From NCBI GenBank assembly GCA_027486755.1, contig JAIXOM010000047.1, positions 1-64,000 on the forward strand: a DNA stretch of 64,000 bases, given 5' to 3'. The notes below the pieces were generated by a model. That model saw only the letters and a list, made by a program, of their open reading frames with translations. It made no database searches and was not told the DNA's origin. Position 1 is the first letter of the stretch, and each line of letters starts with the position of its first letter. Positions 9,245 through 40,611 of the stretch are shown in pieces. The stretch comes from Comamonadaceae bacterium. Its GTDB lineage: Bacteria; Pseudomonadota; Gammaproteobacteria; Burkholderiales; Burkholderiaceae_C. The translations under genes and the position numbers were made by a program.

Positions 9245-11122
9245 ATGAGCGCACGCCTGCCCTTGGGGATGAATGCGCTGCTGCGGGGCTTGGCTTTGCG
9301 TCTGCGAGCGCTGCTGCGCAGCTTCAAGTCAGGCAGCGCAGTACCGCCAGCGATTGAGGCTGAATATTTGCGGCAGATCTACCGCAATTTGGCTGCCGGC
9401 AGTCCCATCTCGCTGGCGATGGTGGTCTATCTGGCGGCGCAGGCCGAACCCGATGCGGCTTCCCTGGTTCGTATCTGGGCTGCTCTCTACAGTATCTACA
9501 TCTGCCTGCGCTGGGCGGCCAGCTTGCTGTATCCGCGCCAGCGCGAGCCAGAGCCGCAGGAGTTGCGGCGATGGTCCATCCTGGCCGTGATCATTCAAGG
9601 GACCAGCGGATTCTTGGTGGCGATACTGGCCCTGTTTGTGTTGCCCACCCTGGATTTGTACGCCCAGATCGTGGCCTGCATGGTGGTGCTGATTTTGGTG
9701 GGCGCCACTGCCTTCAGCTTGTCGGGCCGCTGGGTCGACACCTTGGTATTTGCCCCGCCCATTTATCTGAGTTTTGCATGGCATATCTTTGGGCAAGACC
9801 ATCCCTATGCCCACGGCGTGAGCGCCTTGCCCCTGGCCTTGTTTGTGCTGCATCTGGTCTATGCCAGCAATCACCGCAAGTCGATTCTCAAGGGCTTTGA
9901 GGTGGCCAGGCGCAGCGCCGATCTGGCGCGGGAATTGCAGTTCAAGAACATTGAATATCAGGAGCTGGCCAGTGCCCGCAGCCGTCTGCTGGCCACCGTC
10001 AGCCATGACCTGCGTCAGCCGGCCCACGCCATTGGCCTGCTGTCGGAGCGGGCCCTGGCCGACAACTCCTTTGCAAGTGTCAAGGCGACCTTGCGCGATC
10101 TCAATGAATTGAGTCAGTCCCTGAGCGCCTCGCTCATCACCTTGATGGACCTGACCCGGCTGGACGCAGGCTTGGTCAAGCCGCGCATGGCAGCGGTTTC
10201 GCTGGCGCAGGTCTTGTTGCGGCTCGACGCCGAGTTTGGTGCATCGGCCCGCGCCAAGGGCTTGGTGCTGGAGGTGGAGCGTTCGCAAGCCTGGGTGCAG
10301 TCCGACCCCGTCTTGCTCCAGGGCATCTTGTCCAACCTGATTTCAAACGCCATCAAGTACACCCGCCAAGGGCGGGTGGATGTGCGGGTGATTGACAAGG
10401 GCGCCCAGCTTCAGATTGAGGTGATCGACACCGGACAAGGCATCAGTGTCGACAAGCTCGAGTTGATCTTCAAAGAGTTCGTTCGGCTCGATGCCTCGGA
10501 CTCGGGCACCGAGGGTTTGGGCCTGGGCTTGTCCATTGTGCGTCGCTATGCCAGCCTGATGTCTCATGCGCTCCATGTGCAGTCAGTGCCAGGCCAAGGC
10601 TCGATTTTTACCGTGACCCTGGCGCGGGCACAAACGCCAGAGCGGGTGGTCGAATCCTTGGCCAGTGAACCTACCGAATTGGCCGACGATCACGGCCTAG
10701 CGGGCTTGCATGTGCTGGTGATCGATAACGTCGAGCTGCTGTTGGTGAGCATGAGCAAAACCCTCAGCGGCTGGGGTTGCCAGGTGCGCTCGGCACGCAA
10801 TATGACCGAGGCCCTGCAATGCGCCAGTCAGCAGTGGCCTGATTTGGTGGTCAGCGACCACCACCTGGGCGATCGCGAGCCCAACGGCTTGGAGCTGATC
10901 AAAGGATTGCGCGAGCAGGGCGCGCGCGAAGGGCGCACGCGGCTGCCAGCGCTACTCATGACGGGCGATGTCTCCCCTCAGTTGGAGGCACAGGCCCGAG
11001 AGGCGGGGGTGCGCATTTTGCACAAGCCCGTACGCCCCAAGGTGCTGCGCGCCAGCCTGGCTGAGTTGATGCGCCGCTCCGCTCAAGCCGGGGCTGTGCC
11101 TGTCCGCCGCGCTCATGGCTGA
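9245..11122 (+). CDS. Hybrid sensor histidine kinase 1 of a four-gene paralog array
   Basis: This 625-residue inner-membrane kinase has about six N-terminal membrane segments (residues ~50-215) and a short coiled-coil. The HisKA box SHDLRQPAHAIGL carries phospho-acceptor His254; the HATPase domain has LSNLISNAIKYT, VIDTGQGI and GTEGLGLGLSIVRRYA. The C-terminal receiver has phospho-acceptor Asp538 (VVSDHHLGDREPNG) and Lys in LHKPVRP. The receiver starts LVIDNVELL, with Asn where a second acidic-pocket residue is usual. No recognisable extracytoplasmic sensor domain or DNA-binding output is present, so signal and partner are unknown. By sequence it is closest to kinase 4. It overlaps kinase 2 by 8 nt. 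Confidence 0.9.
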   Translation: MSARLPLGMNALLRGLALRLRALLRSFKSGSAVPPAIEAEYLRQIYRNLAAGSPISLAMVVYLAAQAEPDAASLVRIWAALYSIYICLRWAASLLYPRQREPEPQELRRWSILAVIIQGTSGFLVAILALFVLPTLDLYAQIVACMVVLILVGATAFSLSGRWVDTLVFAPPIYLSFAWHIFGQDHPYAHGVSALPLALFVLHLVYASNHRKSILKGFEVARRSADLARELQFKNIEYQELASARSRLLATVSHDLRQPAHAIGLLSERALADNSFASVKATLRDLNELSQSLSASLITLMDLTRLDAGLVKPRMAAVSLAQVLLRLDAEFGASARAKGLVLEVERSQAWVQSDPVLLQGILSNLISNAIKYTRQGRVDVRVIDKGAQLQIEVIDTGQGISVDKLELIFKEFVRLDASDSGTEGLGLGLSIVRRYASLMSHALHVQSVPGQGSIFTVTLARAQTPERVVESLASEPTELADDHGLAGLHVLVIDNVELLLVSMSKTLSGWGCQVRSARNMTEALQCASQQWPDLVVSDHHLGDREPNGLELIKGLREQGAREGRTRLPALLMTGDVSPQLEAQAREAGVRILHKPVRPKVLRASLAELMRRSAQAGAVPVRRAHG

Positions 11123-12929
11123 CAACCCGCTCTCCAGCAGTCCCCCGGCAAAGGCTGTGGATGAGCTGCGTTCGGGCTGGCGCGGCTGGCTGCGGCGCGC
11201 CGACCCCAGTGTGCTGGCCGAGCAGCTGAGCGTTAATTTCAGTAACTATGTCTTTAACAGCGCGGTGTCTTTGTTCATCGTGCTGTATTTGTATTTCACG
11301 GCGGTCCGCCTGCCCCCGGGCCGCTTGATTCATATGTGGGTGGCGGTGTTTTGCGCTTACTTGGTCGTGCGCATGCTCTCGGGCCTGATCTACGGAAGCT
11401 TGGCGCAGCCTAAAGGCTCGGCACTCTGGCGCTGGGAGTGGCTGCTGCTGGCCAACCAGGCTTTTTACAGCGTCATGGTGGTGGCCCTGGCCTTGGGCAT
11501 CTACCCTGAGCTCGACAGCGATGCGCAAGTGGTGGTGATGACCGGTGCCTTGCTCTTGGTGGGCTCGACTGCCTTTAGCCTGTCGGGCCATCTCAAGGCG
11601 CTGGCCCTGACCGGTCCCCCGCCTTATCTGGCGTTTGCCTGGTCGGCAGCGCAACTGAACAACCCTTACGCGCTGGGCCTGAGTGTGGTCATCGTGGCTC
11701 TGCTGGGCCTGTATGTGATGTACGCCCTCAAGCACCGGCGCAGCCTGCACCGGGGCTTCGCCCTGGCCGGGCAAATCGGCGAGTTGGCCCAACAGCTGCA
11801 GACCAAGAACGAGGAGTTGCAGGAAGTGGCTGCGGGTCGCTCGCGCCTGCTGGCCACGGTCAGCCACGACTTGCGCCAGCCTGCCCATGCCATCGGGCTG
11901 CTGACCGAGCAGGCCCTGCTCGATCCCGCCCATGTCGCCAGTCGGCAGACGCTGCGCGATTTGCACGGCTTGAGCCAATCCCTGAGCGCCTCCTTGGCGA
12001 CCTTGATGGACTTGACCCGTCTGGATGCCGGCCTGGTGCAAGCGCGCATTGCACCCCTTGCGCTGGCGCCCATACTCGAACGCCTGCAGGTCGAGTACGG
12101 GCCCAGTGCCCGGCACAAGGCTCTGCAATTGAGCGTCGCTGCCAGCAAGGCATGGGTGAAGTCTGATCCGGTCCTGCTGCATGCCATCTTGGGCAATTTG
12201 CTGGCCAATGCGATCAAGTACACCCGCCAGGGTCAGGTGCAGGTGCTGATCGAGGAGGGGGATGCGCAGATCCGGGTGGTGGTCAAGGACAGCGGTATTG
12301 GCATCGCCCCCGAACAGCTTGAACGCATTTTTCGGGAGTTCGTGCGGCTCGACAGCTCTCAGCCCGGCACCGAGGGGCTGGGCCTGGGTTTGTCCATTGT
12401 TCGCCGTTATGCGGCCTTGCTCTCGCACCGGCTTGAGGTGCAGTCGCGCCCCGACGAAGGCTCGCGTTTTGTGGTGATTCTGGAGCGGGCGCAGCCCGAT
12501 GTGCGCGCGCAGCCGCAGCTGCCTGTGGCCCAGGCCAACCACTCCCGCCTGCAGGGCTTGCGGGTCCTGGTGGTCGATAACGTCGACCTCCTGCTGACCA
12601 GCATGGAGCGCACGCTCTCGGCCTGGGGTTGCACGGTCAGCACCGCCGAGTGCCTGACCCAGGCCATGGCCCGGCAGGCCGAGCGGCCGCTGGACTTCAT
12701 CATCAGCGACTTTCACCTGGGTGACCGGGAGCCCGATGGTCTGACGGTGATTGAAACGCTGCGCTCCCTGCATGCCGGCCCGGAGCCTTTACCTGCCATT
12801 TTGCTGACCGGTGACGTGGCGCCTGAACTCGAAGCGCGGGCCGCTCAAGCGGGTGCGCAAATCATGCACAAGCCGGTGCGGCCGGCGCAGTTGCAGCGCC
12901 GCATGCTGCAACTGCTGGACGCGGCGTGA
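11115..12929 (+). CDS. Hybrid sensor histidine kinase 2 of the array
   Basis: 604 residues with the same architecture: about six membrane segments in the first ~220 residues, HisKA with SHDLRQPAHAIGLL (His251), HATPase with LGNLLANAIKYTRQGQ, KDSGIGIAPEQLERIF and GTEGLGLGLSIVRRYA, and a terminal receiver with Asp532 (FIISDFHLGDREPDG) and MHKPVRPAQL. The receiver acidic pocket again reads VVDNVDLL. It resembles kinase 3 most closely (shared ARIAP, EYGPSARHK, VSTAECLTQA and LSAWGC blocks). The ATG lies inside the end of kinase 1, so the two are likely co-translated. Confidence 0.9.
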   Translation: MADNPLSSSPPAKAVDELRSGWRGWLRRADPSVLAEQLSVNFSNYVFNSAVSLFIVLYLYFTAVRLPPGRLIHMWVAVFCAYLVVRMLSGLIYGSLAQPKGSALWRWEWLLLANQAFYSVMVVALALGIYPELDSDAQVVVMTGALLLVGSTAFSLSGHLKALALTGPPPYLAFAWSAAQLNNPYALGLSVVIVALLGLYVMYALKHRRSLHRGFALAGQIGELAQQLQTKNEELQEVAAGRSRLLATVSHDLRQPAHAIGLLTEQALLDPAHVASRQTLRDLHGLSQSLSASLATLMDLTRLDAGLVQARIAPLALAPILERLQVEYGPSARHKALQLSVAASKAWVKSDPVLLHAILGNLLANAIKYTRQGQVQVLIEEGDAQIRVVVKDSGIGIAPEQLERIFREFVRLDSSQPGTEGLGLGLSIVRRYAALLSHRLEVQSRPDEGSRFVVILERAQPDVRAQPQLPVAQANHSRLQGLRVLVVDNVDLLLTSMERTLSAWGCTVSTAECLTQAMARQAERPLDFIISDFHLGDREPDGLTVIETLRSLHAGPEPLPAILLTGDVAPELEARAAQAGAQIMHKPVRPAQLQRRMLQLLDAA

Positions 12930-12988
12930 ACTGAGGCCATCGATTCCTTCGGTACGGCCTGCGCCTTTTGCCCGAACCCCGCTCAGTC

Positions 12989-14839
12989 ATGAAGCTACCC
13001 CTCGTGCCCTTGTCCTTGCATGCCTTGAGCAGCCGCGCCGGCCGCTGGCTGCTCGACAAATGGCGCATCGCAGACCCTGACTCGCGTGCCTGGTACACCC
13101 GGGCGATCTACCTCGACTACATCTTCAACAGTGCGGTGGGGCTGTTCATCAGCCTGGCCATTTACCTGTCCTGGCCGGGGCAGCCCTGGCTCTTCCTGCA
13201 GGCCTTCATGGTGGTGTGGACGGTCTACCTGACGGCTCGCTTGGGGCTGGGCTTGATCTACGCGCGGCGTACCTCCCTGCCCGCTGGCGCCATGCCAGCC
13301 CAAACCATGCTGCGCTGGGCCCGGCTGCCCATCCTGTTTCAGGCCATCGATGGCGTCATGCTGTCCCTGCTGTGCCTGTTCATTTACCCGAGGCTCGATG
13401 AAGTGACGCAGATGGCGCTGATGGCCTCGATTTTGGTCATGGTCGGCTCGACCGCCTTCAGCCTGGCGGGGCATTGGCTGGCCATGGCGGTGTACGCGCC
13501 GCCGATTTATGCCAGCCTGGCCTGGGTCAGCTGGCAGCAGGAGCATGCATATGCCCAGGTGTTTGCGCTTTTCACGCTGGCCATGTTCGGGCTTTATGTT
13601 TTTTATGCGAGCAATCAGCACCGCACCATGAACAAGGGCTTTGAGCTGGCCAGGCTCAATGGCGAACTGGCCAGCCAGTTGCAGGCCAAGAACGCCGAAT
13701 TGCAGGAGCTGGCGACCGGCCGTGGGCGTCTGTTGGCCACAGTCAGTCACGATTTACGCCAGCCCGCCCATGCGATTGGCCTGATGACCGAGCAGGCGCT
13801 CAACGATCCGGTCTGCGAGCCTATCAAGGACACCCTGCGCGACCTGCACGGCTTGAGTCAGTCCCTCAGTGCCTCGCTGGCGACCCTGATGGACCTGACC
13901 CGGCTCGATGCTGGACTGGTGCAGGCGCGCATCGCTCCGACCCCGCTGGAGCCCCTGCTCGATAGGCTGCGGGCCGAGTACGGGCCGAGCGCCCGTCACA
14001 AGGGCTTGACGCTGACGGTGGGCAGCAGCAGCGCCTGGGTGCAGTCCGATCCGGTGCTGCTGCACGCCCTGATGGGTAATTTGCTGGCCAATGCCTTGAA
14101 GTACACCCGCCAAGGCCAGGTGCAGGTGACGGTCGAGGAGGCCGAGTCCGACCTCCGCCTGGTGGTGCAAGACACCGGCATAGGCATACCGGCCGATCAG
14201 CTTGAGCGTATTTTTCGGGAGTTTGTCAGGCTCGATGGCTCGCTGCCGGGCACCGAAGGGCTGGGCTTGGGCCTGTCCATCGTGCGGCGCTATGCCGGTC
14301 TGCTTTCCCACCAGCTTGAGGTGCAGTCGCAGCCGCAGCAGGGCTCGCGCTTTGAGGTGCACATGCAGCGGGCCCCAGCCCCGGCGCGGCTATCAGCGCA
14401 GACCGGCGCTGCTGCGGCCCAGGACGCTCGTTTGCAAGGGCTGAGGGTGCTGGCGGTCGACAATGTTGATCTGCTGCTCAAGAGCATGGAGCGCACGCTC
14501 AGCGCCTGGGGCTGCGCAGTCAGCACCGCCGAGTGCTTGACGCAGGCTCGCGCCCGCCAGTTGGAGCGGCCGCTGGATTTGGTCATCAGTGACTTTCATT
14601 TGGGCGATCGGGAGCCCGATGGTCTGGCCGTCATCGAGGCCCTGCGCGCGTCCCATACGCCGGGGCGGGCGCTGCCTGCGATCTTGCTCACCGGAGATGT
14701 GGCGCCGGAATTGGAGGCGGCGGCCGGGCGTGCGGGCGTTGTGGTGCTGCACAAGCCGGTTCGCCCTGGCGTATTGCAGCGATGCATGCTCGAGCAGCTC
14801 GATGCGGGCGAGAAACCTTCTGAGCGCTCTCACACTTAG
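12989..14839 (+). CDS. Hybrid sensor histidine kinase 3 of the array
   Basis: 616 residues from the ATG at 12989 (MKLPLVPLSLHALSSRAGRW); an in-frame TTG at 12968 is less likely. It has six-segment membrane N-terminus, HisKA SHDLRQPAHAIGLM with His254, HATPase motifs MGNLLANALKYTRQGQ, QDTGIGIPADQLERIF and GTEGLGLGLSIVRRYA, and a receiver with Asp535 (LVISDFHLGDREPDG) and Lys in LHKPVRP. The acidic pocket reads AVDNVDLL. The gene is a near twin of kinase 2. A 59-nt gap separates them, consistent with one transcript. Confidence 0.9.
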   Translation: MKLPLVPLSLHALSSRAGRWLLDKWRIADPDSRAWYTRAIYLDYIFNSAVGLFISLAIYLSWPGQPWLFLQAFMVVWTVYLTARLGLGLIYARRTSLPAGAMPAQTMLRWARLPILFQAIDGVMLSLLCLFIYPRLDEVTQMALMASILVMVGSTAFSLAGHWLAMAVYAPPIYASLAWVSWQQEHAYAQVFALFTLAMFGLYVFYASNQHRTMNKGFELARLNGELASQLQAKNAELQELATGRGRLLATVSHDLRQPAHAIGLMTEQALNDPVCEPIKDTLRDLHGLSQSLSASLATLMDLTRLDAGLVQARIAPTPLEPLLDRLRAEYGPSARHKGLTLTVGSSSAWVQSDPVLLHALMGNLLANALKYTRQGQVQVTVEEAESDLRLVVQDTGIGIPADQLERIFREFVRLDGSLPGTEGLGLGLSIVRRYAGLLSHQLEVQSQPQQGSRFEVHMQRAPAPARLSAQTGAAAAQDARLQGLRVLAVDNVDLLLKSMERTLSAWGCAVSTAECLTQARARQLERPLDLVISDFHLGDREPDGLAVIEALRASHTPGRALPAILLTGDVAPELEAAAGRAGVVVLHKPVRPGVLQRCMLEQLDAGEKPSERSHT

Positions 14840-14893
14840 ATCGTTATTCATACGATAATTTAAGGGCCGGCCCTATCGGCCTGACCTGAGCCC

Positions 14894-16729
14894 ATGCCCT
14901 CCATCGGATCCGCCCCAGCCACGGCGGGACTTGCGTCCCGAGCAATGGCTTGGGCCCGAAACGAAGACCCGGCCGCCCTCGCCGCGCACCTGCGGGCCAT
15001 CTACCGTGACTACGCCTTCAACAGTCCGCTGGTCTGTGCCATCAGCATCTATCTGTACATGGCCTGGGACGGACCCCGGCCCTGGACCTTGCTGCAAATC
15101 TGGTTTTCGTTCTGGATGGTCTACATGGCGCTGCGTTTTTGGGCCGGCTGGACTTATTCCATGCAAAAAGAGGAGGGCCGATATTCGCTGGTGACCTGGA
15201 GTCGGCTGTCGCTGTTCATCCAGTTGGTCGATGGCCTTTTTATTGCCGCACTGGCCCTGTTCATCTACCCCCAATTTGATCCCCTGGCCCAGTCGGCGGT
15301 GCTGGCTGCCAGCTTGGTGCTGGTCGGCGCCACTGCATTTAGCCTGGCCGGGCGCTGGCTGGCCGTCTGGGCTTATGCGCCCACGGTCTATCTGAGTTTT
15401 GCCTGGATGACCTGGCAGCAAAAGCACGAATACGCCCAAGGCTTTGCCTTGTTTACCCTGGGCATGTTTGTCCTGTATCTGGTTTTCGCCAGCAATCAGC
15501 GCAAGAGTCTGCACAAAGGTTTTGAGTTGGCCAAACGCAATGGCGAGTTGGCCGCTGAGTTGCAAAGCAAGAACCTGGAGTTGCGCGAGGTGGCCGCCGG
15601 CCGCAGCCGCCTGCTGGCTACGGTCAGTCACGACTTGCGCCAGCCGGCCCATGCCATCGGCTTGCTGGCTGAACGGGCCCTGGTCGACTCATCGACCGCT
15701 TCGATCAGGCAGAGCCTGCGCGACCTCAATGAATTGAGTCAGTCGCTCAGTGCCTCACTCACCACCTTGATGGACCTGACCCGGCTTGATGCCGGACTGG
15801 TCGAGCCTCGCTCCGTGCCGGTGGCTTTGGTCAACCTGCTGGCCCGCTTACAGGGCGAATTCGAACCCGTAGCCCGCAGCAAGGGCTTGCGCCTGCTGGT
15901 GCGCCCGTCTGTGGCCTGGGTGAACTCGGACCCGGTCCTGCTGTATGGTCTTTTGGCCAATTTGGTTGCCAACGCCATCAAGTACACCGCCCATGGGGCG
16001 GTTGAGTTGACGCTCAGCCCGGCTGACCGGCAGATCTGCCTTTCCGTGTCCGATACCGGTATAGGGATACATCAAGACCGGTTGGATCAGATCTTCAATG
16101 AATTCGTGCGTCTGGACGCTCGCGACTCCGGCAGAGAAGGCTTGGGCCTGGGCCTGTCCATCGTCAGGCGCTATGCACTCTTACTGGGGCACCGCCTGTC
16201 GGCGGAGTCCACGCCGGAGCGGGGCTCCCGGTTTTCGCTGTGGCTGCCCCTGTGCGAGCCGGGGCGGGATCAGGCGCGGGCCGCGCCGCAAGCTTCGCAG
16301 GAACAACTGCGGGGCCTGCGGGTGCTGGTGGTGGACAACGTTGATCTGCTGCTCAGCAGCATGGTCAAAACCCTGAGCGCCTGGGGCTGTCAGGTGTGCG
16401 CTGCGCGCAATCTGGTGGAGGCCATAGACGCCACCGGTAACCTGGAGATCGATCTGCTGATCAGCGATTACCATCTGGGCGACTTTGAGCCCAACGGCTT
16501 GCAGCTGATTCAGACCATGCGTTCGCGCGCCGTCAGAGCCATACCTGCACTGTTGATGACTGGCGATGTGTCGGCCCAGTTGGAGGCCCAGGCGCAGTTG
16601 CAGGATGTGCGCGTGGTCCACAAGCCGGTGCGGCCCCCAGTGTTGCGGGCGCAGGTCTTGGCCTTGATCGAACCGGCGGCCCAATCGCCGGAGCCCGGCC
16701 AGAGTCCTCAGGCTGTTAAGCCGGGCTGA
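14894..16729 (+). CDS. Hybrid sensor histidine kinase 4 of the array
   Basis: 611 residues, again a six-segment membrane region, HisKA SHDLRQPAHAIGLL with His246, HATPase with LANLVANAIKYTAHGA, SDTGIGIHQDRLDQIF and EGLGLGLSIVRRYA, and a terminal receiver with Asp525 (LLISDYHLGDFEPNG) and VHKPVRPPVL. The acidic pocket is VVDNVDLL. It resembles kinase 1 more than kinases 2 and 3 (RDLNELSQSLSASL and CQV-AARN blocks). The 54-nt gap after kinase 3 is AT-rich, with a GATAAT at 14854-14859, so an extra internal promoter is possible. A hairpin lies just downstream. Confidence 0.9.
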   Translation: MPSIGSAPATAGLASRAMAWARNEDPAALAAHLRAIYRDYAFNSPLVCAISIYLYMAWDGPRPWTLLQIWFSFWMVYMALRFWAGWTYSMQKEEGRYSLVTWSRLSLFIQLVDGLFIAALALFIYPQFDPLAQSAVLAASLVLVGATAFSLAGRWLAVWAYAPTVYLSFAWMTWQQKHEYAQGFALFTLGMFVLYLVFASNQRKSLHKGFELAKRNGELAAELQSKNLELREVAAGRSRLLATVSHDLRQPAHAIGLLAERALVDSSTASIRQSLRDLNELSQSLSASLTTLMDLTRLDAGLVEPRSVPVALVNLLARLQGEFEPVARSKGLRLLVRPSVAWVNSDPVLLYGLLANLVANAIKYTAHGAVELTLSPADRQICLSVSDTGIGIHQDRLDQIFNEFVRLDARDSGREGLGLGLSIVRRYALLLGHRLSAESTPERGSRFSLWLPLCEPGRDQARAAPQASQEQLRGLRVLVVDNVDLLLSSMVKTLSAWGCQVCAARNLVEAIDATGNLEIDLLISDYHLGDFEPNGLQLIQTMRSRAVRAIPALLMTGDVSAQLEAQAQLQDVRVVHKPVRPPVLRAQVLALIEPAAQSPEPGQSPQAVKPG

Positions 16730-30223: not shown

Positions 30224-32194
30224 ATGACAGCCAAGCCCAGCACAGACTATTCCGAAAGTTCCATCCGAGTCCTCAAGGGGCTCGAGCCTGTCAAGCAGCG
30301 GCCGGGCATGTACACCCGCACCGACAACCCGCTGCACATCTTGCAAGAGGTGATCGACAACGCCGCCGACGAGGCGCTGGCCGGCCACGGCAAGAAGATA
30401 CGCCTGATGCTGCACAGCGACGGCTCGGTCAGCATCGAAGACGAAGGCCGGGGCATCCCCTATGGCTTGCACCCCCAGGAGAAGGCGCCGGTCATCGAGC
30501 TGGTCTTCACCCGCTTGCATGCCGGCGGCAAGTTCGACAAGGGGCAGGGCGGGGCCTACAGCTTTTCAGGCGGCCTGCATGGGGTGGGCGTGAGCGTCAC
30601 CAACGCACTGGCCAAACGGCTGGAGGTCAGCAGCTACCGCGAGGGCCAGGTGGCGCGTCTGGTGTTTTCTGCTGGCGATGTGATCGAGCCGCTGCAGCTG
30701 CGCAAGGCCGGCGAAGGTGACCGGCGCCAAGGCACTACGGTGCGTGTCTGGCCCGACCCCAAGTACTTCGACAGTGCCGCTATCCCTCCAAATGAGCTGG
30801 TGCACCTGCTGCGCAGCAAGGCGGTGCTGATGCCCGGCGTGAGCGTCAGCCTCAGCCATGAGAAAACCCGCGAAACCCAGACCTGGCTCTACAAGGGCGG
30901 GCTGCACGACTACCTGCAGCAGACCCTCAGTGCCGACCCGGTCATTCCCATGTTCGAGGGCGAGGGCTATGCCGACGCCGCCCATGAGAGCTTTGCCGAG
31001 GGCGAGGGCGTGCAGTGGTGCGTGGCCTTTACCGAAGACGGACAGCCGGTGCGCGAAAGCTATGTCAATCTGATCCCGACCACCGCTGGTGGCACCCATG
31101 ACAGCGGCTTGCGCGAAGGCCTGTTTCAGGCCATCAAGAGCTTCATCGACCTGCACAGCCTGCTGCCCAAGGGCGTCAAGCTGATGCCCGAAGACGTGTT
31201 TGCTCGGGCCAGCTATGTGCTCTCGGCCAAGGTGCTGGACCCGCAGTTTCAAGGGCAGGTCAAGGAAAGGCTCAATTCGCGCGATGCGGTGCGCCTGGTC
31301 TCGAGCTTTGTGCGGCCCACGCTCGAGCTCTGGCTCAACCAGCACGTGGACTACGGCAAAAAGCTGGCCGAACTGGCCATCCGCGCCGCACAGACCCGCC
31401 AAAGAGCGGGCCAGAAGGTGGAAAAGCGCAAGGGCTCGGGCGTGGCGGTGCTGCCGGGCAAGCTCACCGACTGCGAGAGCAAGGATTTGTCGCTCAACGA
31501 GGTGTTTTTGGTCGAGGGCGATTCAGCCGGCGGCAGCGCCAAGATGGGCCGCGACAAGGAAACCCAGGCCATCTTGCCCTTGCGCGGCAAGGTACTCAAT
31601 ACCTGGGAGGTTGAGCGCGATCGCCTGTTTGCCAACACCGAGATCCACGATATTTCGGTGGCCATTGGCGTCGATCCCCATGGCCCAAACGACGAGCCCG
31701 ATTTAAGCGGGCTGCGTTATGGCAAGGTCTGCATCCTCTCGGATGCCGACGTTGACGGCTCGCACATACAGGTCTTGCTGCTGACCTTGTTCTTCCGCCA
31801 CTTCCCCAAGCTGATCGAGCGCGGCCATGTGTATGTGGCCCGCCCGCCGCTGTTCAGGGTGGATGCGCCGGCGCGCGGCAAGAAGCCGGCGGCCAAGGTC
31901 TACGCGCTCGACGAAGGCGAGCTCACTGCCATCCTGGACAAGCTGCGCAAGGACGGAGTGCGTGAAGGCGCCTGGGCCATCAGCCGCTTCAAGGGCTTGG
32001 GCGAGATGAGCGCCGAGCAGCTCTGGGACACCACCCTCAACCCCGATACCCGCCGCCTGCTGCCGGTCCATTTAGGCCAGCTGGACTTTGCACAAACCGA
32101 ACAGCTGATCACCAAGCTCATGGGCAAGGGCGAGGCCGGAGCCCGCCGCGAGCTGATGGAGCTGCACGGTGACAGCGTGGAAGTGGACATCTGA
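30224..32194 (+). CDS. parE: DNA topoisomerase IV subunit B
   Basis: ParE is the ATPase subunit of topoisomerase IV, which unlinks daughter chromosomes. The 656-residue protein has the GHKL ATPase domain (EVIDNAADEALAGHG, DEGRGIPYGLHP, GGLHGVGVSVTNAL), the transducer domain and the TOPRIM domain (LVEGDSAGGSAKMGRD and SDADVDGSHIQVLLL, carrying Glu and Asp metal ligands). The length is as expected for ParE rather than GyrB. It is followed after 1 nt by a lytic transglycosylase gene and then parC. A LexA-type box precedes it. Confidence 0.96.
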   Translation: MTAKPSTDYSESSIRVLKGLEPVKQRPGMYTRTDNPLHILQEVIDNAADEALAGHGKKIRLMLHSDGSVSIEDEGRGIPYGLHPQEKAPVIELVFTRLHAGGKFDKGQGGAYSFSGGLHGVGVSVTNALAKRLEVSSYREGQVARLVFSAGDVIEPLQLRKAGEGDRRQGTTVRVWPDPKYFDSAAIPPNELVHLLRSKAVLMPGVSVSLSHEKTRETQTWLYKGGLHDYLQQTLSADPVIPMFEGEGYADAAHESFAEGEGVQWCVAFTEDGQPVRESYVNLIPTTAGGTHDSGLREGLFQAIKSFIDLHSLLPKGVKLMPEDVFARASYVLSAKVLDPQFQGQVKERLNSRDAVRLVSSFVRPTLELWLNQHVDYGKKLAELAIRAAQTRQRAGQKVEKRKGSGVAVLPGKLTDCESKDLSLNEVFLVEGDSAGGSAKMGRDKETQAILPLRGKVLNTWEVERDRLFANTEIHDISVAIGVDPHGPNDEPDLSGLRYGKVCILSDADVDGSHIQVLLLTLFFRHFPKLIERGHVYVARPPLFRVDAPARGKKPAAKVYALDEGELTAILDKLRKDGVREGAWAISRFKGLGEMSAEQLWDTTLNPDTRRLLPVHLGQLDFAQTEQLITKLMGKGEAGARRELMELHGDSVEVDI

Positions 32195-32195
32195 T

Positions 32196-33122
32196 ATGCG
32201 CCTGCCCGGCCTGGCCGTCTTGCTGTGCGCCCTGACCTTGGGCGGGGCGGCGCGTGCCGAGGTCTGGGCCTGGGTTGACGAGCGCGGGGTGCCGCACTTT
32301 GCCAGCCATCAAGTCGATGCGCGTTACCAGCTCTTCTTCAAGGGCTCTGCGCCCGAGCTGCTGGTCAAGCCCATGGCAACGCCTGCGCCGACGCTTTCAA
32401 GCTCGGCGCAGCCGGCCACAGCGCTGGGAACCTTGGTGCCCGTCTCGCCTTCCGGCCCTAGAGCCGGGGCATTGACGGCCGCCGCTGCCTCCCCGCGGCC
32501 GCGGCTTTTGGGCCTGCTGGAGAACTCGCCGGGCTACAAGCGCGTCTTGCCCTTGGTGCAGGATGTGGCGCGTCAACTGGGCTTGGATGCACAGCTGATG
32601 GTGGCATTGATCGCTGCCGAATCAGGCTTTGACCCGCGTGCGGTTTCGCCCAAGGGCGCGGTTGGCTTGATGCAGCTGATGCCGGGCACCGCCGAGCGTT
32701 ATGGCGTGCGGGCCGACAGCAGCACCAGCCAGCGCGAGCGGCTGATGCAGCCCGAGACCAATGTCCGCGCCGGTGCCTTGTTTCTGCGTGACCTCTTGCT
32801 GATGTTCCCGGGCCGTATCGACCTGGTGCTGGCCGCCTACAACGCGGGCCCTGGCGCGGTCATGCGCGCCGGTCTGCGCATTCCCGACTACCCCGAGACG
32901 CAGAACTATGTGCGTACCGTGACCGAGTTGTTTGCCTACCTGCGCCCGGCCGCGCCGGCCCCGAAAGTCGAGGTGGCGGCCCTGCCGCCGCCTGTCCAGG
33001 CTCCGGCTGCCCCTGCGCCTGCTGCCACCTGGCTGTCGCCCCAGGCCGCTGATGCGGTCTCGCGCGGCATCTTGCTCGCGCCACCGGGCATACCCCTGAG
33101 CCTGCCGGCCAGCCGCGATTGA
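32196..33122 (+). CDS. Periplasmic lytic transglycosylase with DUF4124 and SLT domains
   Basis: A 308-residue exported protein likely to cleave peptidoglycan glycan strands. The signal peptide (MRLPGLAVLLCALTLGGAARA) is followed by a DUF4124-like segment (EVWAWVDERGVPHFAS), a linker, and an SLT domain with the catalytic Glu in LIAAESGFDP, then GAVGLMQLMPGTA and VLAAYNAGPGAV. A Pro/Ala-rich tail of about 60 residues follows. The ATG at 32196 is one base after the parE stop. Its place between parE and parC suggests shared transcription. Confidence 0.9.
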   Translation: MRLPGLAVLLCALTLGGAARAEVWAWVDERGVPHFASHQVDARYQLFFKGSAPELLVKPMATPAPTLSSSAQPATALGTLVPVSPSGPRAGALTAAAASPRPRLLGLLENSPGYKRVLPLVQDVARQLGLDAQLMVALIAAESGFDPRAVSPKGAVGLMQLMPGTAERYGVRADSSTSQRERLMQPETNVRAGALFLRDLLLMFPGRIDLVLAAYNAGPGAVMRAGLRIPDYPETQNYVRTVTELFAYLRPAAPAPKVEVAALPPPVQAPAAPAPAATWLSPQAADAVSRGILLAPPGIPLSLPASRD

Positions 33123-35649: not shown

Positions 35650-36768
35650 TCAGCAGCAGGCCATCATGCTGCGCTGCAGCTGCCCCAGATAGGCCCCGCC
35701 GGGCATATCAGAGTATTTCAAATTCGCAAACAAGCCGCGACGCTTTTGGTCGTTGGCGTCCGCCAATACGCGGTAGCTTTCCAAATCCTCACCGCTCAGA
35801 CCGATTTGCTCAATCGGCCGGGTGCCGTCTGAGACCAGCGCTTGGGGCTTGGCGCCCAGCATCAGGCGCGCGCCCACGCCCGCGTAGAGGTAGCGGTCGC
35901 CGAAGGCCTTGCTCATGGCCTCAAAGGCAGGCTCGCCGGTGCAATGGCCTGGGGCCACATAGGCCACCTTGTAGGTGTTCTGCATGACGTTGATGGTTTT
36001 TGCAATCTCGTCGTCTTTACTGACCACCATGTGCATGCCGCCCGAGATCATTTGTATACGCGGATCGATTTTGACCGCTGCCTCCAGGATGCGGTCGATC
36101 CCGGGGTGCGAGCAGCCCACCACCAGAACCAGCCCTTGCGGTGTTTGCAAGGCCAGCGACAACTCGCGCAACTCCAGCGTGCCGGGCTTGTCCGACACCA
36201 GGCTGATGACATGCACGCCCGGGGCCAGTTCGGTGGTTTTATCAATGAGCCGGATGTTGGCCTCGGGCCAGGCTGCGCCAAAGCGCATCACCTCCGGTGG
36301 TTTGCCGTCGTAGTAACGCATCTGGGGCGGCAGGGATTCGCTGCGGCGGTAGAAGCTGCCGGGCAGGTCGCCGCCATACACGCCGAATCCTTCCTTGGGC
36401 GCATAAATGACAACCTTGGGATTGACGCTGAGCAGATGCGCCATGCCGCCCATGTGATCGCCGTGGCGGTGCGACATCACCACCATGTCGAGCCGACTGA
36501 GGTCCGCGCCCAGGGCGCGGGCGTTGTGCGCCAGGGTCTGGCCGTTGTTGCCCGTGTCAAAGAGTATGCGCCGCCCATCAATCTCGATCAAGGCCGCGTA
36601 GCCCCAGTCCTTGATCAGATGGGTTTCGCTGCACAGGGCGTCGAACAAGATGGTGATGCGCGGCTGCGATGGGGCGGCCGCTGCTGTGGTCTGGCCCATG
36701 CTGCTGCAGCCTGCGGAAAGTACAGCCGGCGCGCTCAGCGCGGTGGCGATCAAATTGCGTCGTTTCAT
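35650..36768 (-). CDS. Exported MBL-fold metallo-hydrolase
   Basis: A 372-residue metallo-beta-lactamase-fold protein with a lipoprotein-like signal (MKRRNLIATALSAPAVLSAGC, lipobox LSAGC). The metal site motif is MSHRHGDHMGG, and other His/Asp ligands are suggested by LVVGCSHPGIDR and APGHCTGEPAF. The fold resembles the group related to dihydropteridine/RFA-P synthase-like hydrolases; the substrate is unknown. The start is ATG at 36768. The first 117 bases of the gene plus 65 upstream bases are duplicated at 38017-38198. It lies convergent with parC. Confidence 0.85.
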   Translation of the reverse strand: MKRRNLIATALSAPAVLSAGCSSMGQTTAAAAPSQPRITILFDALCSETHLIKDWGYAALIEIDGRRILFDTGNNGQTLAHNARALGADLSRLDMVVMSHRHGDHMGGMAHLLSVNPKVVIYAPKEGFGVYGGDLPGSFYRRSESLPPQMRYYDGKPPEVMRFGAAWPEANIRLIDKTTELAPGVHVISLVSDKPGTLELRELSLALQTPQGLVLVVGCSHPGIDRILEAAVKIDPRIQMISGGMHMVVSKDDEIAKTINVMQNTYKVAYVAPGHCTGEPAFEAMSKAFGDRYLYAGVGARLMLGAKPQALVSDGTRPIEQIGLSGEDLESYRVLADANDQKRRGLFANLKYSDMPGGAYLGQLQRSMMACC

Positions 36769-36833
36769 GGTGGCTCCAAAAAAACAGATAGGCACGGCTG
36801 CCGGTGAGGGGCAGGGACTGGTCAAAGTCTGAC
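36652..36833. repeat. Border repeat M, copy 1 (head of metallo-hydrolase gene)
   Basis: This 182-bp segment covers the first part of the metallo-hydrolase gene and its upstream region. It matches 38017-38198 in the same orientation at about 85-90 percent by eye, from GGTGATGCGCGGCTGCGATG to GGTCAAAGTCTGAC, with a few one-base indels. Similarity stops abruptly at both ends. Confidence 0.85.
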
Positions 36834-37312
36834 GCCCTTTACGTAATCGCGTACTCGGTTCTAACCCTGGACTCGGCCTCTGCGCCCAGGGAAATTACGA
36901 TGTTTTACAAGCCAAGACCTGCTGTCTGGCTATCGCGAACGGGAACGCGTTCATGCCGTGCAAGGCCTGCGATGTGGAGGCCCCAAATAGTCCCGGCTCG
37001 GAGGCCTTTGCACCGCTCATTCTCACGGGCAAGGCATGTATCCATTCGTAGAGGGTGGCGCACCAGCCTGGAAAAAACAGGGCAAAGATTCACAAACAGA
37101 AGGCGATTAACTCCAGTGGCTGAACTACAGTTGTTTTCGACAGTACAACCATCGACCGATTGAGCAAGCGGTGCATCCTCACCAACCCGGCTCTGGCGCC
37201 AAGCCAGTGGCACCCCCTTATTTCAAGGCTCAGACCGTACTGGCAAGCTCCGAGTCATCGGCTATTTTGCATATACGGTCTGCTTGACCAGACATCAACC
37301 TGCATATACATT
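36834..37312. other. Gene-free stretch upstream of brnT
   Basis: About 480 nt between repeat M and brnT with lower GC than its surroundings. No convincing protein is seen on either strand. Close to brnT, TGCATATAC occurs at 37268-37276 and again at 37301-37309, exactly 33 bp apart, and TTGACC (37284-37289) could act as a -35. The two motifs may be operator half-sites. Confidence 0.4.
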
Positions 37313-37588
37313 TTGAGCCTGATCACCTGGGACGAACCAAAGCGTCTGGAGAACATTCGCAAGCACAAGATCGATCTTGCGGATTTGGAACCTCTCTTCG
37401 ACTACCCGATGGTCACGGTGGAAGACTCTCGCGAGAGCTACGGCGAGTTGAGGCTGCAGAGCCTTGGCATGTGGCAGGGGCGGGTGGTCTTCCTGGTCTG
37501 GACACCGCGTGGTGAAGACACCGCGCATCTCATTTCATGCCGTTATGCCGACCGTCAAGAAACCGATGACTACTTCCAAACCGTTTAG
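37313..37588 (+). CDS. brnT: BrnT family ribonuclease toxin
   Basis: BrnT is a type II toxin with a RelE-like fold that cuts RNA and is held inactive by BrnA. The 91-residue product shows the family pattern: ITWDEPKRLENIRKHKIDL near the start, then TVEDSRESYGELRLQSLGM, GRVVFLVWTPRGEDTAHLIS and CRYADRQETDDY. No ATG lies close to the family N-terminus; TTG at 37313 (or CTG at 37319) is the likely start, while the open frame runs back to 37160 without similarity. It overlaps brnA. The pair lies between border repeats M and K. Confidence 0.8.
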   Translation: MSLITWDEPKRLENIRKHKIDLADLEPLFDYPMVTVEDSRESYGELRLQSLGMWQGRVVFLVWTPRGEDTAHLISCRYADRQETDDYFQTV

Positions 37589-37901
37589 TGCAGCCGCCAT
37601 CGCTTCGGCCAAGGCGGCTGCTGCGGAATCTGGCCATGGCAATGCCTCTAGGGTCAACTGGAGCCAAGGTGTTGTCACCCCGGGTGGTGGCGTCACTGCC
37701 ACCATCGCTGCGCTGGGTCGTACTCGCGGTCCGAACAAGAAGCCTGCAAAGGTGCAGGTCGCGATTCGACTTGACCCTGAACTCGTTGGCGCACTCAGGG
37801 CAAGCGGCCCCGGTTGGCAAACCCGTGTCAATGCTGCGCTGAAGCAATGGCTTGCGTCGCAGCCCGAAAAACGCAAGCCGCGGCGGCACGGTGCGGTCTA
37901 G
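37545..37901 (+). CDS. brnA: BrnA family antitoxin
   Basis: The 118-residue product has the ribbon-helix-helix end of BrnA antitoxins: KVQVAIRLDPELVGALRASG followed by PGWQTRVNAALKQWLAS. BrnA neutralises BrnT and represses its own operon. The N-terminal part is Ala/Lys-rich, and a Gly segment (VTPGGGVTATIAALGRTRG) lies in the middle. ATG at 37545 or 37566 could start it; both are inside brnT, which is the usual arrangement of this pair. Confidence 0.8.
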   Translation: MPTVKKPMTTSKPFSAAAIASAKAAAAESGHGNASRVNWSQGVVTPGGGVTATIAALGRTRGPNKKPAKVQVAIRLDPELVGALRASGPGWQTRVNAALKQWLASQPEKRKPRRHGAV

Positions 37902-37949
37902 CTTGTAAGGTCAGGCCTCGAAGCTGCGATCTGGCCTTGCTGCCGCTAG

Positions 37950-38016
37950 GGCTGGTGCGCCGCAGACGCTCATCGGCCCGACCCCTGCACATGCCAGCCG
38001 GCCTTGCTCTCATGGC
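37950..38016. repeat. Border repeat K, duplicated kefB tail fragment
   Basis: This 67-bp segment matches 38783-38849, which spans the last codons of kefB and the sequence after its stop, in the same orientation and with only a few mismatches (shared ACGCTCATCGGCCC and ATGCCAGCCGGCCTTGCTCT). It abuts border repeat M copy 2 at 38016/38017, with a shared GG at the junction. Confidence 0.8.
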
Positions 38017-38133
38017 GGTGATGCGCGGCTGCGATGGGCTGGCCACTGCTGCGGTCTGGCTCAAGCTGTTGCAGCTTGCGGAAAGCACAGCCGGTGCGCT
38101 CAGCGCGGTGGCGATCAAATTGCGTCGTTTCAT
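38017..38133 (-). pseudogene. Truncated 5' copy of the metallo-hydrolase gene
   Basis: Reading from ATG at 38133 gives MKRRNLIATALSAPAVLSAS and then CNSLSQTAAVASPSQPRIT, the signal peptide region of the hydrolase at 36768, with substitutions such as CSSMGQ to CNSLSQ. After 39 codons it runs into the duplicated kefB tail in a foreign frame. No metal-binding residues remain, so it is a dead fragment left by the duplication. Confidence 0.8.
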
Positions 38134-38198
38134 GGGAGCTCCTAAAAACAGATAGGCGCGGCTCCCGGTGAGGGGGCAGGAACTGGTCAAAGTCTGAC
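38017..38198. repeat. Border repeat M, copy 2
   Basis: The second copy of the 182-bp metallo-hydrolase head segment (copy 1 at 36652-36833). It carries the start codon region of the hydrolase on the minus strand and ends at GTCAAAGTCTGAC, after which the sequence becomes that of the RelE-type TA pair. Confidence 0.85.
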
Positions 38199-38264
38199 TT
38201 CGAAATTGGGCATTGTGGTGAGCTTGCGGCAGAATGAAGCCCTGCAGAACCTTGGAGCACCGCC

Positions 38265-38465
38265 ATGCCCGATGTCAAAGCCCTAGAACAAGCTGTACAA
38301 GCTCTCCCTCCCTCAGCACTGGCGCAATTCCGTCGTTGGTTTGCCGAATTCGACTCTGCCGCCTGGGACCTTCAGTTGGAGACGGATGCTTCCACCGGAA
38401 AACTTGATGCGCTGTTTGCCGAAGCTGAGGAAGACTACAAGAGTCAGCCTCACCGCTCCTTGTGA
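38265..38465 (+). CDS. Small antitoxin of a RelE-type TA pair
   Basis: A 66-residue acidic, helical protein (MPDVKALEQAVQALPPSALA, RRWFAEFDSAAWDLQLETD, KLDALFAEAEEDY). This pattern is typical of the short antitoxins encoded directly before RelE/ParE toxins of the HTxSRFW type. Its TGA overlaps the GTG start of the toxin gene. A weak TTGGGC ... CAGAAT promoter may lie at 38206-38236. Function is inferred from the partner. Confidence 0.75.
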   Translation: MPDVKALEQAVQALPPSALAQFRRWFAEFDSAAWDLQLETDASTGKLDALFAEAEEDYKSQPHRSL

Positions 38466-38725
38466 ACCACACAGCGTCTGCAAGGTTCTGGCGCTGCTAC
38501 GACGCGATGCCCGCCGAAGTCCGTGCGCTTGCGGACAAGAATTTCGAGTTACTCAAGGCTGATCCATCGTATCCGTCACTGCAGTTCAAGTTGCTAGGCG
38601 GCGGCAAAATGTATAGCGCGAGAGTCGGGCTGCACTATCGGACGCTCGGCCTGCCCCGTGAGGGTGGCATTCACTGGTTCTGGATCGGCACACATGCCGA
38701 GTACGACCGCCTTGTCGATGGCTAA
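38462..38725 (+). CDS. RelE/ParE family toxin
   Basis: An 87-residue basic protein starting at GTG 38462, overlapping its antitoxin (GTGA). It has the RelE/ParE-like pattern SARFWRCYDAMPAEVRALAD, PSYPSLQFKLLGGGKMYSAR, VGLHYRTLG and a final HWFWIGTHAEYDRLV. Such toxins typically cut mRNA or poison gyrase; which one cannot be told here. With its antitoxin it occupies the second slot between border repeats M and K. Confidence 0.8.
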   Translation: MNHTASARFWRCYDAMPAEVRALADKNFELLKADPSYPSLQFKLLGGGKMYSARVGLHYRTLGLPREGGIHWFWIGTHAEYDRLVDG

Positions 38726-38802
38726 GCTCTCGATCTAGTCAAGCGCGGGCGGCAGGCTTAAAATGGGCCGTACCGCCAATACGGCTGGTACGGGCCATAC
38801 GC

Positions 38803-40611
38803 TCATCGGCCCGGCCCCTGAACATGCCAGCCGGCCTTGCTCTCATGGCGGGCTTGGCGCTCCAGGTCGGCCTGCATCTCGCGCTCGAACTGTTCGCGGG
38901 TTTGGCGCAAGCGCTCGATGAAGCTTTCAGCGACATGCCTGTCGCTTTGCGCATGGCGCAAAAATTCCAGGGAGTGGCGCCTGAAGTTGTCGGCCAGTTG
39001 CTTGCTTTGCGTGCGATCCATGCCCAGCACCTCGAGCACGGAGCGGCCGCTGCGCAGTGAGGACTCGAACAGTTCGCGCTCCACGTGCGGCACCTGCATT
39101 TCGGCCAGTTCCATGGCGTGCCTGGCATCGCGGGCTCTGGCCACGATGCGCACATGACCATGGTCGTGCTGCAAGGTCTGGACCAGGCGATTGCATTGGG
39201 TCACGTCGTCGATGGCCACCACCATGGCCTGGGCATGTTCAATGCCTGCGGCGCGCAGCAAGTCACTCTGCGTGGCATCGCCAAAGTACACCTTGAAGCC
39301 GTAGCGCCGGGCGCTGTCGACGGTGTTGGCATCGTGGTCGATGACGGTGGGCTTGATGCCCGCGGCCATCAACAGGCGCGCCACCGTCTGGCCGTAGCGG
39401 CCAAAGCCGGCCACGATGACCGGCGGGTGCGCGTCTTCAAAGCTGTCGGCCGGACGCTCGGGTGATTTTTCGCGGCAGGCCCAGTCGAACACTTTGAGCA
39501 GCAGGGGTGTGCTGGCCATGGACAGGGCGGCCACCAGGGTCAGCAGGTCCGCCTGGCCAGCACTCAAGGCCCCCGATAGCTTGGCAGCCGACAGGACCAC
39601 AAAGGCAAATTCGCCGACCTGGGACAGCAGCAGGGCCAAAAGCAGCTTGTCGCGCCCGCGCAGGCCCAGCCATTGCGCCAGAGTCCAGATGGCCAGGGTC
39701 TTGAGCCCCACCACCAGCAGCAAGCCTGCGATCACCTGCACCGGCATGCTGACCAACAGGCCCAAGTCCATGCCCATGCCCACGGCGATGAAAAACAAAC
39801 CCAGCAGCAGGCCCTTGAAGGGCAGGATGTCGCTCTCCAGCGCGTGGCGGTACTCGCTGCTGGCCAGCAGCACGCCGGCCAGGAATGCGCCCAAGCCCAT
39901 GGACAGCCCCACCTGCCCCATGAGCGCGGCCACGCCCAACACCAAGAGCAGCGCAAAGCCGGTGAAGAGTTCGCGTACCTGCATGCGGGCCACAAAGTGC
40001 ATCACCGGGTAGGCCACATAGCGGCCCAGCAGCACCACGGCCACCACCGCACCCAGCTGCCACCACCAGGCGACCGATGCCGCAGCGGCGGGCGACGCCG
40101 AGGGCGGCGCGGCCTGGCCCAGCAGGGCGGCCAGAGCCAACAGGGGGATGGCAGCTATGTCCTGATAGAGCAGCATGGAAAAGCCATGGCGGCCCAGCGG
40201 TGCGGGCATCAGGTTGCGCTCCTGCAGCAGGGCCACCACGATGGCGGTGGACGACAGCGCCAAGGCGAGAGCGCCTATCAAGCTGGCCTGCCAGGTCCAG
40301 CCCAGCGCCCAGCCCAAGGCGCCAAGTGCTGCGGCGCACACCCCCATTTGCGCCGTGCCGCCGCCAAAGACCATGCCGCGCATGGCCCACAGGCGCTTGG
40401 GCTCGAGCTCCAGCCCGATGACAAAGAGCATGAGCACCACGCCCAATTCAGAAACATGCAGCAAGGCGGCGGGGTCGCTCACCAGCTCGAGCGCCATGGG
40501 GCCAATCACCACGCCGGCCAGCAGGTAACCCAGCACCGAGCCCAGGCCCAGGCGCACCGCCAAGGGTACGACGATCAAGGCCGCTAGCAAGAACAAGATG
40601 GCTTGGTTCAT
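38803..40611 (-). CDS. kefB: KefB/KefC-type CPA2 potassium-proton antiporter
   Basis: An inner-membrane K+/H+ exchanger gated by glutathione adducts in well-studied relatives. The 602-residue protein has about 12-13 membrane spans (residues 1-380), with conserved GVVLMLFVIGLELEPKRLW and LSSTAIVVALLQERN, then an RCK/TrkA-N domain with NAD-binding VIVAGFGRYGQTVARLL and an acidic VIDHD. The C-terminus is a long charged helix (SFIERLRQTREQFEREMQA). The choice between KefB and KefC is not certain. It overlaps the quinone-reductase-like gene by 4 nt. Its last bases are duplicated at 37950-38016. Confidence 0.9.
   Translation of the reverse strand: MNQAILFLLAALIVVPLAVRLGLGSVLGYLLAGVVIGPMALELVSDPAALLHVSELGVVLMLFVIGLELEPKRLWAMRGMVFGGGTAQMGVCAAALGALGWALGWTWQASLIGALALALSSTAIVVALLQERNLMPAPLGRHGFSMLLYQDIAAIPLLALAALLGQAAPPSASPAAAASVAWWWQLGAVVAVVLLGRYVAYPVMHFVARMQVRELFTGFALLLVLGVAALMGQVGLSMGLGAFLAGVLLASSEYRHALESDILPFKGLLLGLFFIAVGMGMDLGLLVSMPVQVIAGLLLVVGLKTLAIWTLAQWLGLRGRDKLLLALLLSQVGEFAFVVLSAAKLSGALSAGQADLLTLVAALSMASTPLLLKVFDWACREKSPERPADSFEDAHPPVIVAGFGRYGQTVARLLMAAGIKPTVIDHDANTVDSARRYGFKVYFGDATQSDLLRAAGIEHAQAMVVAIDDVTQCNRLVQTLQHDHGHVRIVARARDARHAMELAEMQVPHVERELFESSLRSGRSVLEVLGMDRTQSKQLADNFRRHSLEFLRHAQSDRHVAESFIERLRQTREQFEREMQADLERQARHESKAGWHVQGPGR

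Follow-up and report, generated by a model that had tools for sequence, protein, structure and literature searches.

Two unrelated toxin-antitoxin (TA) pairs, each bordered by duplicates of the same two gene ends, occupy the interval between a metallo-beta-lactamase (MBL)-fold hydrolase gene and a kefB/kefC-like antiporter gene in a Comamonadaceae bacterium (assembly GCA_027486755.1, contig JAIXOM010000047.1, positions 1 to 64,000; these 64,000 nucleotides are referred to as the window). Between 35400 and 40800, the order is the hydrolase gene (minus strand), repeat M1, the brnTA pair, repeat K1 joined directly to repeat M2, an antitoxin with a ParE-like toxin, and repeat K2 within kefB (minus strand), with M being the head of the hydrolase gene and K the tail of kefB. 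This arrangement resembles two alternative versions of one site that were placed side by side, without replacement. The explanation that we favour, with a probability of about 0.5, is that recombination placed a second allele in tandem with the first, through homology at one end and an illegitimate join at the other. Its observed parts are the tandem arrangement, the GG shared at the join, the single-copy state of M and K in a second genome (G068), and the presence of brnA together with a ParE-like relic in that interval of G068.

Duplicated borders and their junction

The order M, brnTA, K, M, TA pair, K had been described in an earlier note made from the letters alone, and a repeat finder confirmed it, with 182 bp for each M copy and 86 bp for K. 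The M copies match from 36652-36783 to 38017-38148 (90%) and, past a 1-base shift, through 36780-36811/38144-38175 (94%) and then 36808-36833/38173-38198 (96%); in the alignment, M1 and M2 differ at 16 of 181 ungapped columns, with 4 additional gap columns. K (37933-38018 against 38766-38851, 85%) consists of a kefB-coding part, in which 3 of 49 columns vary among K1, K2, and G068, and a flank past the kefB stop, in which K1 and K2 are identical in only 28 of 45 columns. The same note had stated that M and K meet with a shared GG, which proved correct at 38017/38018. The junction reads ...CTCATGGCGG/TGATGCGC..., while the parents read ...ATGGCGGGCTTGG (kefB) and ...AAGATGGTGATGCG (hydrolase), with GG common to both; with so little shared sequence (2 bp), the join is of the illegitimate type.

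Within the bacterium's own genome, K1 matches K2 at E=1.6e-21, with the next-best match at E=0.11, and a 3.25-kb query containing both M and both K copies gave only its own place among the 40 of 80 first-look candidates that were scored, in a result that was not fully itemised and had no separate row for the internal M1/M2 match. Since K has only two significant matches in the genome and the longer query lists only its own place, M and K look like a local duplication rather than a dispersed repeat. The window has five direct-repeat families of at least 60 nt, namely M, K, and three that belong to one tandem array at 9.7-16.5 kb. This array (9696-16522) comprises four diverged units, spaced by about 1.85-1.88 kb and 60-78% alike. 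Furthermore, a palindromic element of about 60 bp is dispersed over five other contigs of the genome (G000 C7, C26, C32, C34, and C50; loci L123 and L125-L128). It has only 17 bp in common with K2 (38805-38821), and the idea that K is a piece of this palindrome was rejected.

A junction of this kind could also be produced by an assembly artefact in which the locus versions of two strains were joined into one contig. In line with this, a search of 5.8 billion proteins with the fused open frame across K1/M2 (23 candidates scored) gave no relative at E<=0.001, and the tandem was found in no second genome. However, the assembly, in 64 contigs, has a completeness rating of 100% and a contamination rating of 0.5%, and copies that are about 10% different make a collapse or expansion of identical repeats unlikely. 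We therefore consider an artefact very improbable.

The hydrolase-kefB interval in a second genome

Few genomes carry the hydrolase: at E<=1e-40 it was found in 3 of 87 genomes of the genus, and at E<=1e-80 in 4 of 399 of the family (the own genome is included in these and all following counts). Among eight hydrolase loci outside the window that were examined for neighbours, kefB adjoins in G068 only; it was not seen near the hydrolase at L090, L094, L095, L096, L003, L004, and L006 (9-16 kb per locus). The linkage of the two genes was seen in two genomes only, the window and G068.

G068 carries a single M and a single K, between which lie an M1-type leader, about 98 bp, an 84-bp relic of a ParE-like toxin head, and then an intact brnA. 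brnT is gone, and no BrnT relative was found in G068 at E<=1e-10 in the genus-genome search. The relic was identified by tblastn (E=4.2e-5), with 0 of 200 shuffles reaching its score. Of the TA genes, only the brnA antitoxin is left whole in G068. Because the interval thus combines single M and K copies with brnA and a ParE-like relic, the single M/K looks like the ordinary, simpler state, and the interval seems to have housed both TA families at some time. A second relic in G068, comprising the antitoxin and the toxin head (L086 9564-9763), is located about 2.4 kb away, between what is presumably a methyltransferase-like gene and a lytic transglycosylase gene.

That brnA and a ParE-like relic share an interval of G068 with only one M and one K could also point to an ancestor with both TA pairs, whose interval was duplicated, after which each copy lost a different pair. 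This course would need a duplication and two clean losses, and a ParE-like trace between M1 and brnT was looked for and rejected, as 38 of 200 shuffles on one strand and 125 of 200 on the other were as good. We judge this ancestry to be improbable.

A tandem addition and the history of the copies

In the tandem addition that we favour, the resident version would be M1/brnTA/K1, beside which a second version, comprising the hydrolase head M2, the antitoxin/ParE-like pair, and the kefB tail K2, would have been added. Homologous pairing of the incoming DNA may have taken place on one side, with kefB as the simplest site, in which case M2 to part of kefB would be donor DNA; homology in the hydrolase is the other possible source. 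The opposite side would have been joined illegitimately at K1/M2, as in homology-facilitated illegitimate recombination or in a merodiploid made by transformation. Because the end of K1 is kefB sequence, the start of M2 is hydrolase sequence, and GG is shared, one crossover between an allele A (M-brnTA-K) and an allele B (M-ParE-like pair-K), illegitimate at K1/M2, would yield the arrangement of the window in a single step. A divergence step in kefB near codon 297 could mark the end of the donor tract. As part of this explanation, we give about even odds to the hydrolase-kefB interval being a place where small TA cassettes arrive, leave, and decay, with the gene ends serving as homology arms. 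Regarding natural competence in Polaromonas, nothing on point was found in literature titles and abstract openings.

A more speculative and rather unlikely extension is that addiction determines how the exchange proceeds. Replacement of a live TA pair would kill the recipient, so that only recombinants that add in tandem and keep the old antitoxin would survive; the copied gene ends between the TA pairs would then be the scar of an additive exchange, and the state of G068 (antitoxin kept, toxin gone, other pair decayed) would represent later decay.

The age and relationship of the copies were assessed from site patterns, with M1 and M2, or K1 and K2, aligned with G068 as third sequence. The M copies differ from G068 at 20 and 22 of 181 columns, against the 16 between each other, and their site patterns (M1=M2 12, M1=G068 8, M2=G068 6, all different 2) look like a near three-way split with a slight closeness of M1 and M2 that resides almost entirely in the 5' flank, as the coding part yields 1, 4, and 4 sites, respectively. 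For K, the patterns are K1=G068 16, K1=K2 4, K2=G068 1, and all different 2. Since K2 is far from K1 in the non-coding flank (17 of 45 columns differ) while K1 is close to G068 (5 of 45), the K2 flank has, judged by these columns, a history other than that of K1. M1 and M2 diverge from each other nearly as much as from G068, and the M and K patterns conflict; the copies are thus not young, and the two borders of the ParE-like cassette, left and right, have no single simple history in common. Metagenomic hydrolase heads were inspected as a source of M2 for 19 of 120 listed matches (P0121-P0139, with P0136 lacking the head); the combination of changes in M2 was not present in any of them, while single changes recur (LSQ in P0126, ASC in P0139).

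These patterns bear on the main rival, an in-place tandem duplication of M-brnTA-K that came first, with the ParE-like cassette later replacing brnTA in the second copy. M1 and M2 are indeed closest to each other in the 5' flank of the hydrolase (11 shared sites, compared with 4 and 2 in the remaining two combinations), and the GG join is compatible with a spontaneous duplication. Moreover, a 14-bp stretch between M2 and the antitoxin (13 identical) matches the brnT region, with 0 of 200 shuffles reaching its score in what was one of seven such comparisons, and could be a faint brnTA remnant. However, two events would be required, the differences between the K1 and K2 non-coding flanks are too many for a plain copy as young as M2, and no brnTA trace was found behind the ParE-like toxin (41 of 200 shuffles were as good). 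We regard a duplication that came first as possible, albeit unlikely.

Several observations weigh against the tandem addition itself. The conflicting histories of M and K are the main weakness of every model and leave a single event between two clean alleles, as the earlier note had pictured it, unproven; the pairing of M1 with M2 in the hydrolase 5' flank is opposite to that in K, and M2 is not clearly foreign. The GG overlap is only 2 bp long, and the homologous side of the event is not demonstrable from one genome. Four-fold-site divergence of kefB from G068 does rise near codon 297 toward K2, from 0.16 to 0.30, but 29 of 500 permutations are as strong, and it is low again in codons 551-600 beside K2 (3/19). 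The evidence from the ParE-like relic between the hydrolase and brnA of G068 is weak, since neither a DNA search at E<=1 nor a protein search at E<=1e-6 picked it up. The note had also proposed a TA exchange hotspot, to be checked in relatives with only one pair or neither: the single M/K with brnA and the decayed ParE-like head of G068 make varying TA content at a single site, and a tandem join in the window, reasonable assumptions, with two linked genomes to compare (brnTA and the ParE-like pair in the window, brnA and the ParE-like relic in G068). Yet neither an intact ParE-like-only allele (hydrolase/ParE-like pair/kefB), which would be the donor type, nor an empty site was found among the two genomes with the linkage, the seven other hydrolase loci having no kefB nearby. 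Finally, the note had named two findings as contrary to its proposal, namely both pairs in a relative without repeats, and M and K copies that far predate the TA genes and have no relation to them. G068 exhibits the former in degraded form, with remains of both TA families and no M/K between them, and the M copies are old by the column counts given above.

Divergence across the neighbouring genes

Four-fold-site divergence from G068 amounts to 5/70 in brnA, 25/184 in the transglycosylase gene, 28/190 in the hydrolase, 73/329 in kefB, 25/75 in kefF, and 114/334 in parC, which is located elsewhere in G068. Synonymous divergence (NG86) is 0.10, 0.20, 0.19, 0.40, 0.56, and 0.80, respectively. According to Fisher tests, brnA differs from kefB (p=0.003) and the hydrolase from kefB (p=0.04), while brnA and the hydrolase do not differ significantly (p=0.14); these are a small number of post hoc comparisons in a single genome pair, with parC as the sole yardstick gene outside the block. 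The kefB tail and the remainder of kefB are equal at four-fold sites (p=1.0). Because the block genes diverge less from G068 than parC, and brnA least, the simplest reading seems to be that the transglycosylase-hydrolase-TA-kefB block moved between lineages, although parC itself could have been replaced in one genome, as an alternative cause of its higher divergence. The minimum at brnA fits an exchange around the TA cassette.

The transglycosylase-like gene of the window (32169-33122), which we take to encode a lytic transglycosylase-like protein, lies between topoisomerase IV parE and parC, and a 53.5% relative occupies the same place in G066. No relative between parE and parC was matched in G068 or G083; in G068, parC and topoisomerase parE are on another contig without a transglycosylase match between them. 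A 55-bp parC scar is located beside the hydrolase end in G068 (L086 8581-8635, minus strand), with 83.6% identity over 55 bp to the parC of the window and a poorer match to the parC of G068 itself (80.6% over 36).

The two cassettes

Table 1. Features of the hydrolase-kefB interval and its neighbours, in window positions.
Feature	Position	Strand	Basis
MBL-fold hydrolase gene, left neighbour	35650..36768	-	Pfam Lactamase_B; 96% aa in G068
M1, hydrolase head and ~65 bp upstream, copy in intact gene	36652..36833		repeat finder and alignment
Leader common to M1 and the single M of G068, absent beside M2	36834..36963		comparison with G068
Spacer	36964..37262		against ParE-like cassette no better than shuffles
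brnTA cassette	37263..37901	+	left edge from G083 (contig C235), DNA similarity over 37263-37896
brnT toxin, TTG start	37313..37588	+	PF04365, 73 bits, cut-off 34.5; PDB 3u97 BrnT, E=3.3e-7
brnA antitoxin, 111 aa	37566..37901	+	PF14384, 62.9 bits, cut-off 26.1; 94.6% aa in G068
K1, copy of kefB tail and 3' flank	37933..38018		repeat finder and alignment
K1/M2 junction, shared GG	38017..38018		sequence reading
M2, truncated hydrolase head and upstream part	38017..38198		repeat finder and alignment
Antitoxin/ParE-like cassette and upstream region	38224..38762	+	left edge from second G068 relic; right edge is K2 start
Putative antitoxin, 66 aa	38265..38465	+	relative just upstream of toxin in 6 of 7 other loci
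Putative ParE-like toxin, 87 aa, GTG start	38462..38725	+	PF24732 ParE_like, 26.4 bits, just over cut-off 24.4
Hairpin 3' of kefB, AUUUUAAG behind it on kefB strand; absent from K1	38765..38796	-	folding, weak
K2, kefB tail and 3' flank, copy in intact gene	38766..38851		repeat finder and alignment
kefB/kefC-like K+/H+ antiporter gene, right neighbour	38803..40611	-	family search; 94% aa in G068

With the full PF04365 profile covered (1-77 of 77) and brnA located directly downstream, its start inside the end of brnT, the first pair is assigned to the BrnTA type II TA systems. BrnT is sporadic in the genus (10 of 87 genomes at E<=1e-10): besides the own genome, only G083 has a close relative (81%), the other eight being 38-45% identical.

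The toxin of the second pair, which the earlier note had called RelE-type, instead matches the Pfam family ParE_like. Relatives of the antitoxin, for which no match was found in Pfam or NCBIfam, lie upstream of the toxin at L082, L111-L114, and L116, while the seventh locus, L115, has a stop in its toxin. Based on the ParE_like domain and this conserved small upstream gene, the pair is classified as a ParE-like toxin with its antitoxin, toxicity and neutralisation being putative. At E<=0.001, the protein database contains 679 relatives of the toxin, and among the best 120 of these, which were listed, identity reaches 89%; a sequence search of the PDB gave no relative at E<=1. It is sporadic as well, occurring in 2 of 87 genus genomes (E<=1e-6) and 7 of 399 family genomes (E<=1e-10).

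A decayed ParE-like copy at another place in G068 raises the question whether this pair moves as a discrete element, with the M and K copies as by-products of its insertion. In G323, the pair lies between two direct copies of a 61-bp repeat (L114 1400-1460 and 2109-2169), and at L111 it is bracketed by a weak 38-nt repeat (76%). However, the 61-bp repeat belongs to an abundant dispersed family with at least 40 matches in that genome (40 of 344 first-look candidates scored), and was rejected as decisive evidence. L112, L113, L115, and L116 have no direct repeats of at least 35 nt around the pair (flanks up to 1.5 kb, ungapped; L082 left out). Furthermore, none of the 7 listed pairs of inverted repeats of at least 20 nt has its arms at the ends of either cassette, as transposon-like bounding repeats would. 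No relative of the toxin was confirmed in phages or viral contigs; in plasmids, three cyanobacterial records are 38-57% identical. Movement as a discrete element is, in our view, highly unlikely.

The hairpin 3' of kefB, which is present only in the K2 flank, is possibly the kefB terminator. Among shuffles, 14 of 200 fold as well on the kefB strand and 1 of 200 on the other strand, and the hairpin is not among the results of the terminator scan.

Comparison with known systems

Binary capsulation in pneumococcus is reportedly a case of two versions of a locus standing in tandem after transformation. As far as the consulted parts of the sources go, merodiploids made by transformation in this species carry two locus versions in tandem, through duplications of about 100-900 kb that formed at repeats (PMC3784515); unlike these, the unit in the window measures about 1 kb, has a 2-bp join, and is old. 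Homology-facilitated illegitimate recombination, in which one illegitimate join stands beside a homologous one, has been described in Acinetobacter, Pseudomonas stutzeri, and pneumococcus (PMC2884548). The illegitimate join is common to both, whereas the homologous side is not demonstrable in the window.

TA insertion hot spots between core genes include the folA-apaH interval of Escherichia coli with ccdO157 and the relA-mazG interval of Salmonella with parDE (PMC7167474). As in these hot spots, as far as they are described there, one gene-gene interval appears to have different or decayed TA content across genomes, two in the present case; unlike in them, the window contains two unrelated pairs in tandem between copied gene ends on one chromosome. 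In Vibrio cholerae, effector-immunity modules of the type VI secretion system undergo sequential displacement, for which homology-facilitated illegitimate recombination has been proposed (PMC5361080). The likeness, within what that source covers, is that the new module stands beside the old one and the old immunity gene is kept without its toxin, comparable to brnA without brnT in G068. However, the pairs of the window are type II TA systems, not secreted effectors, and both full pairs are kept.

Thus, TA hot spots, one-sided illegitimate additions, module displacement, and merodiploids are already known, while tandem TA alleles with both borders copied, which we did not find described in literature titles and abstract openings, would be new. 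A locus that retains both alleles and both border copies may be a snapshot of an integration of this kind, and duplicated ends of neighbouring genes between TA pairs are suggested as a signature that can be searched for across many genomes.

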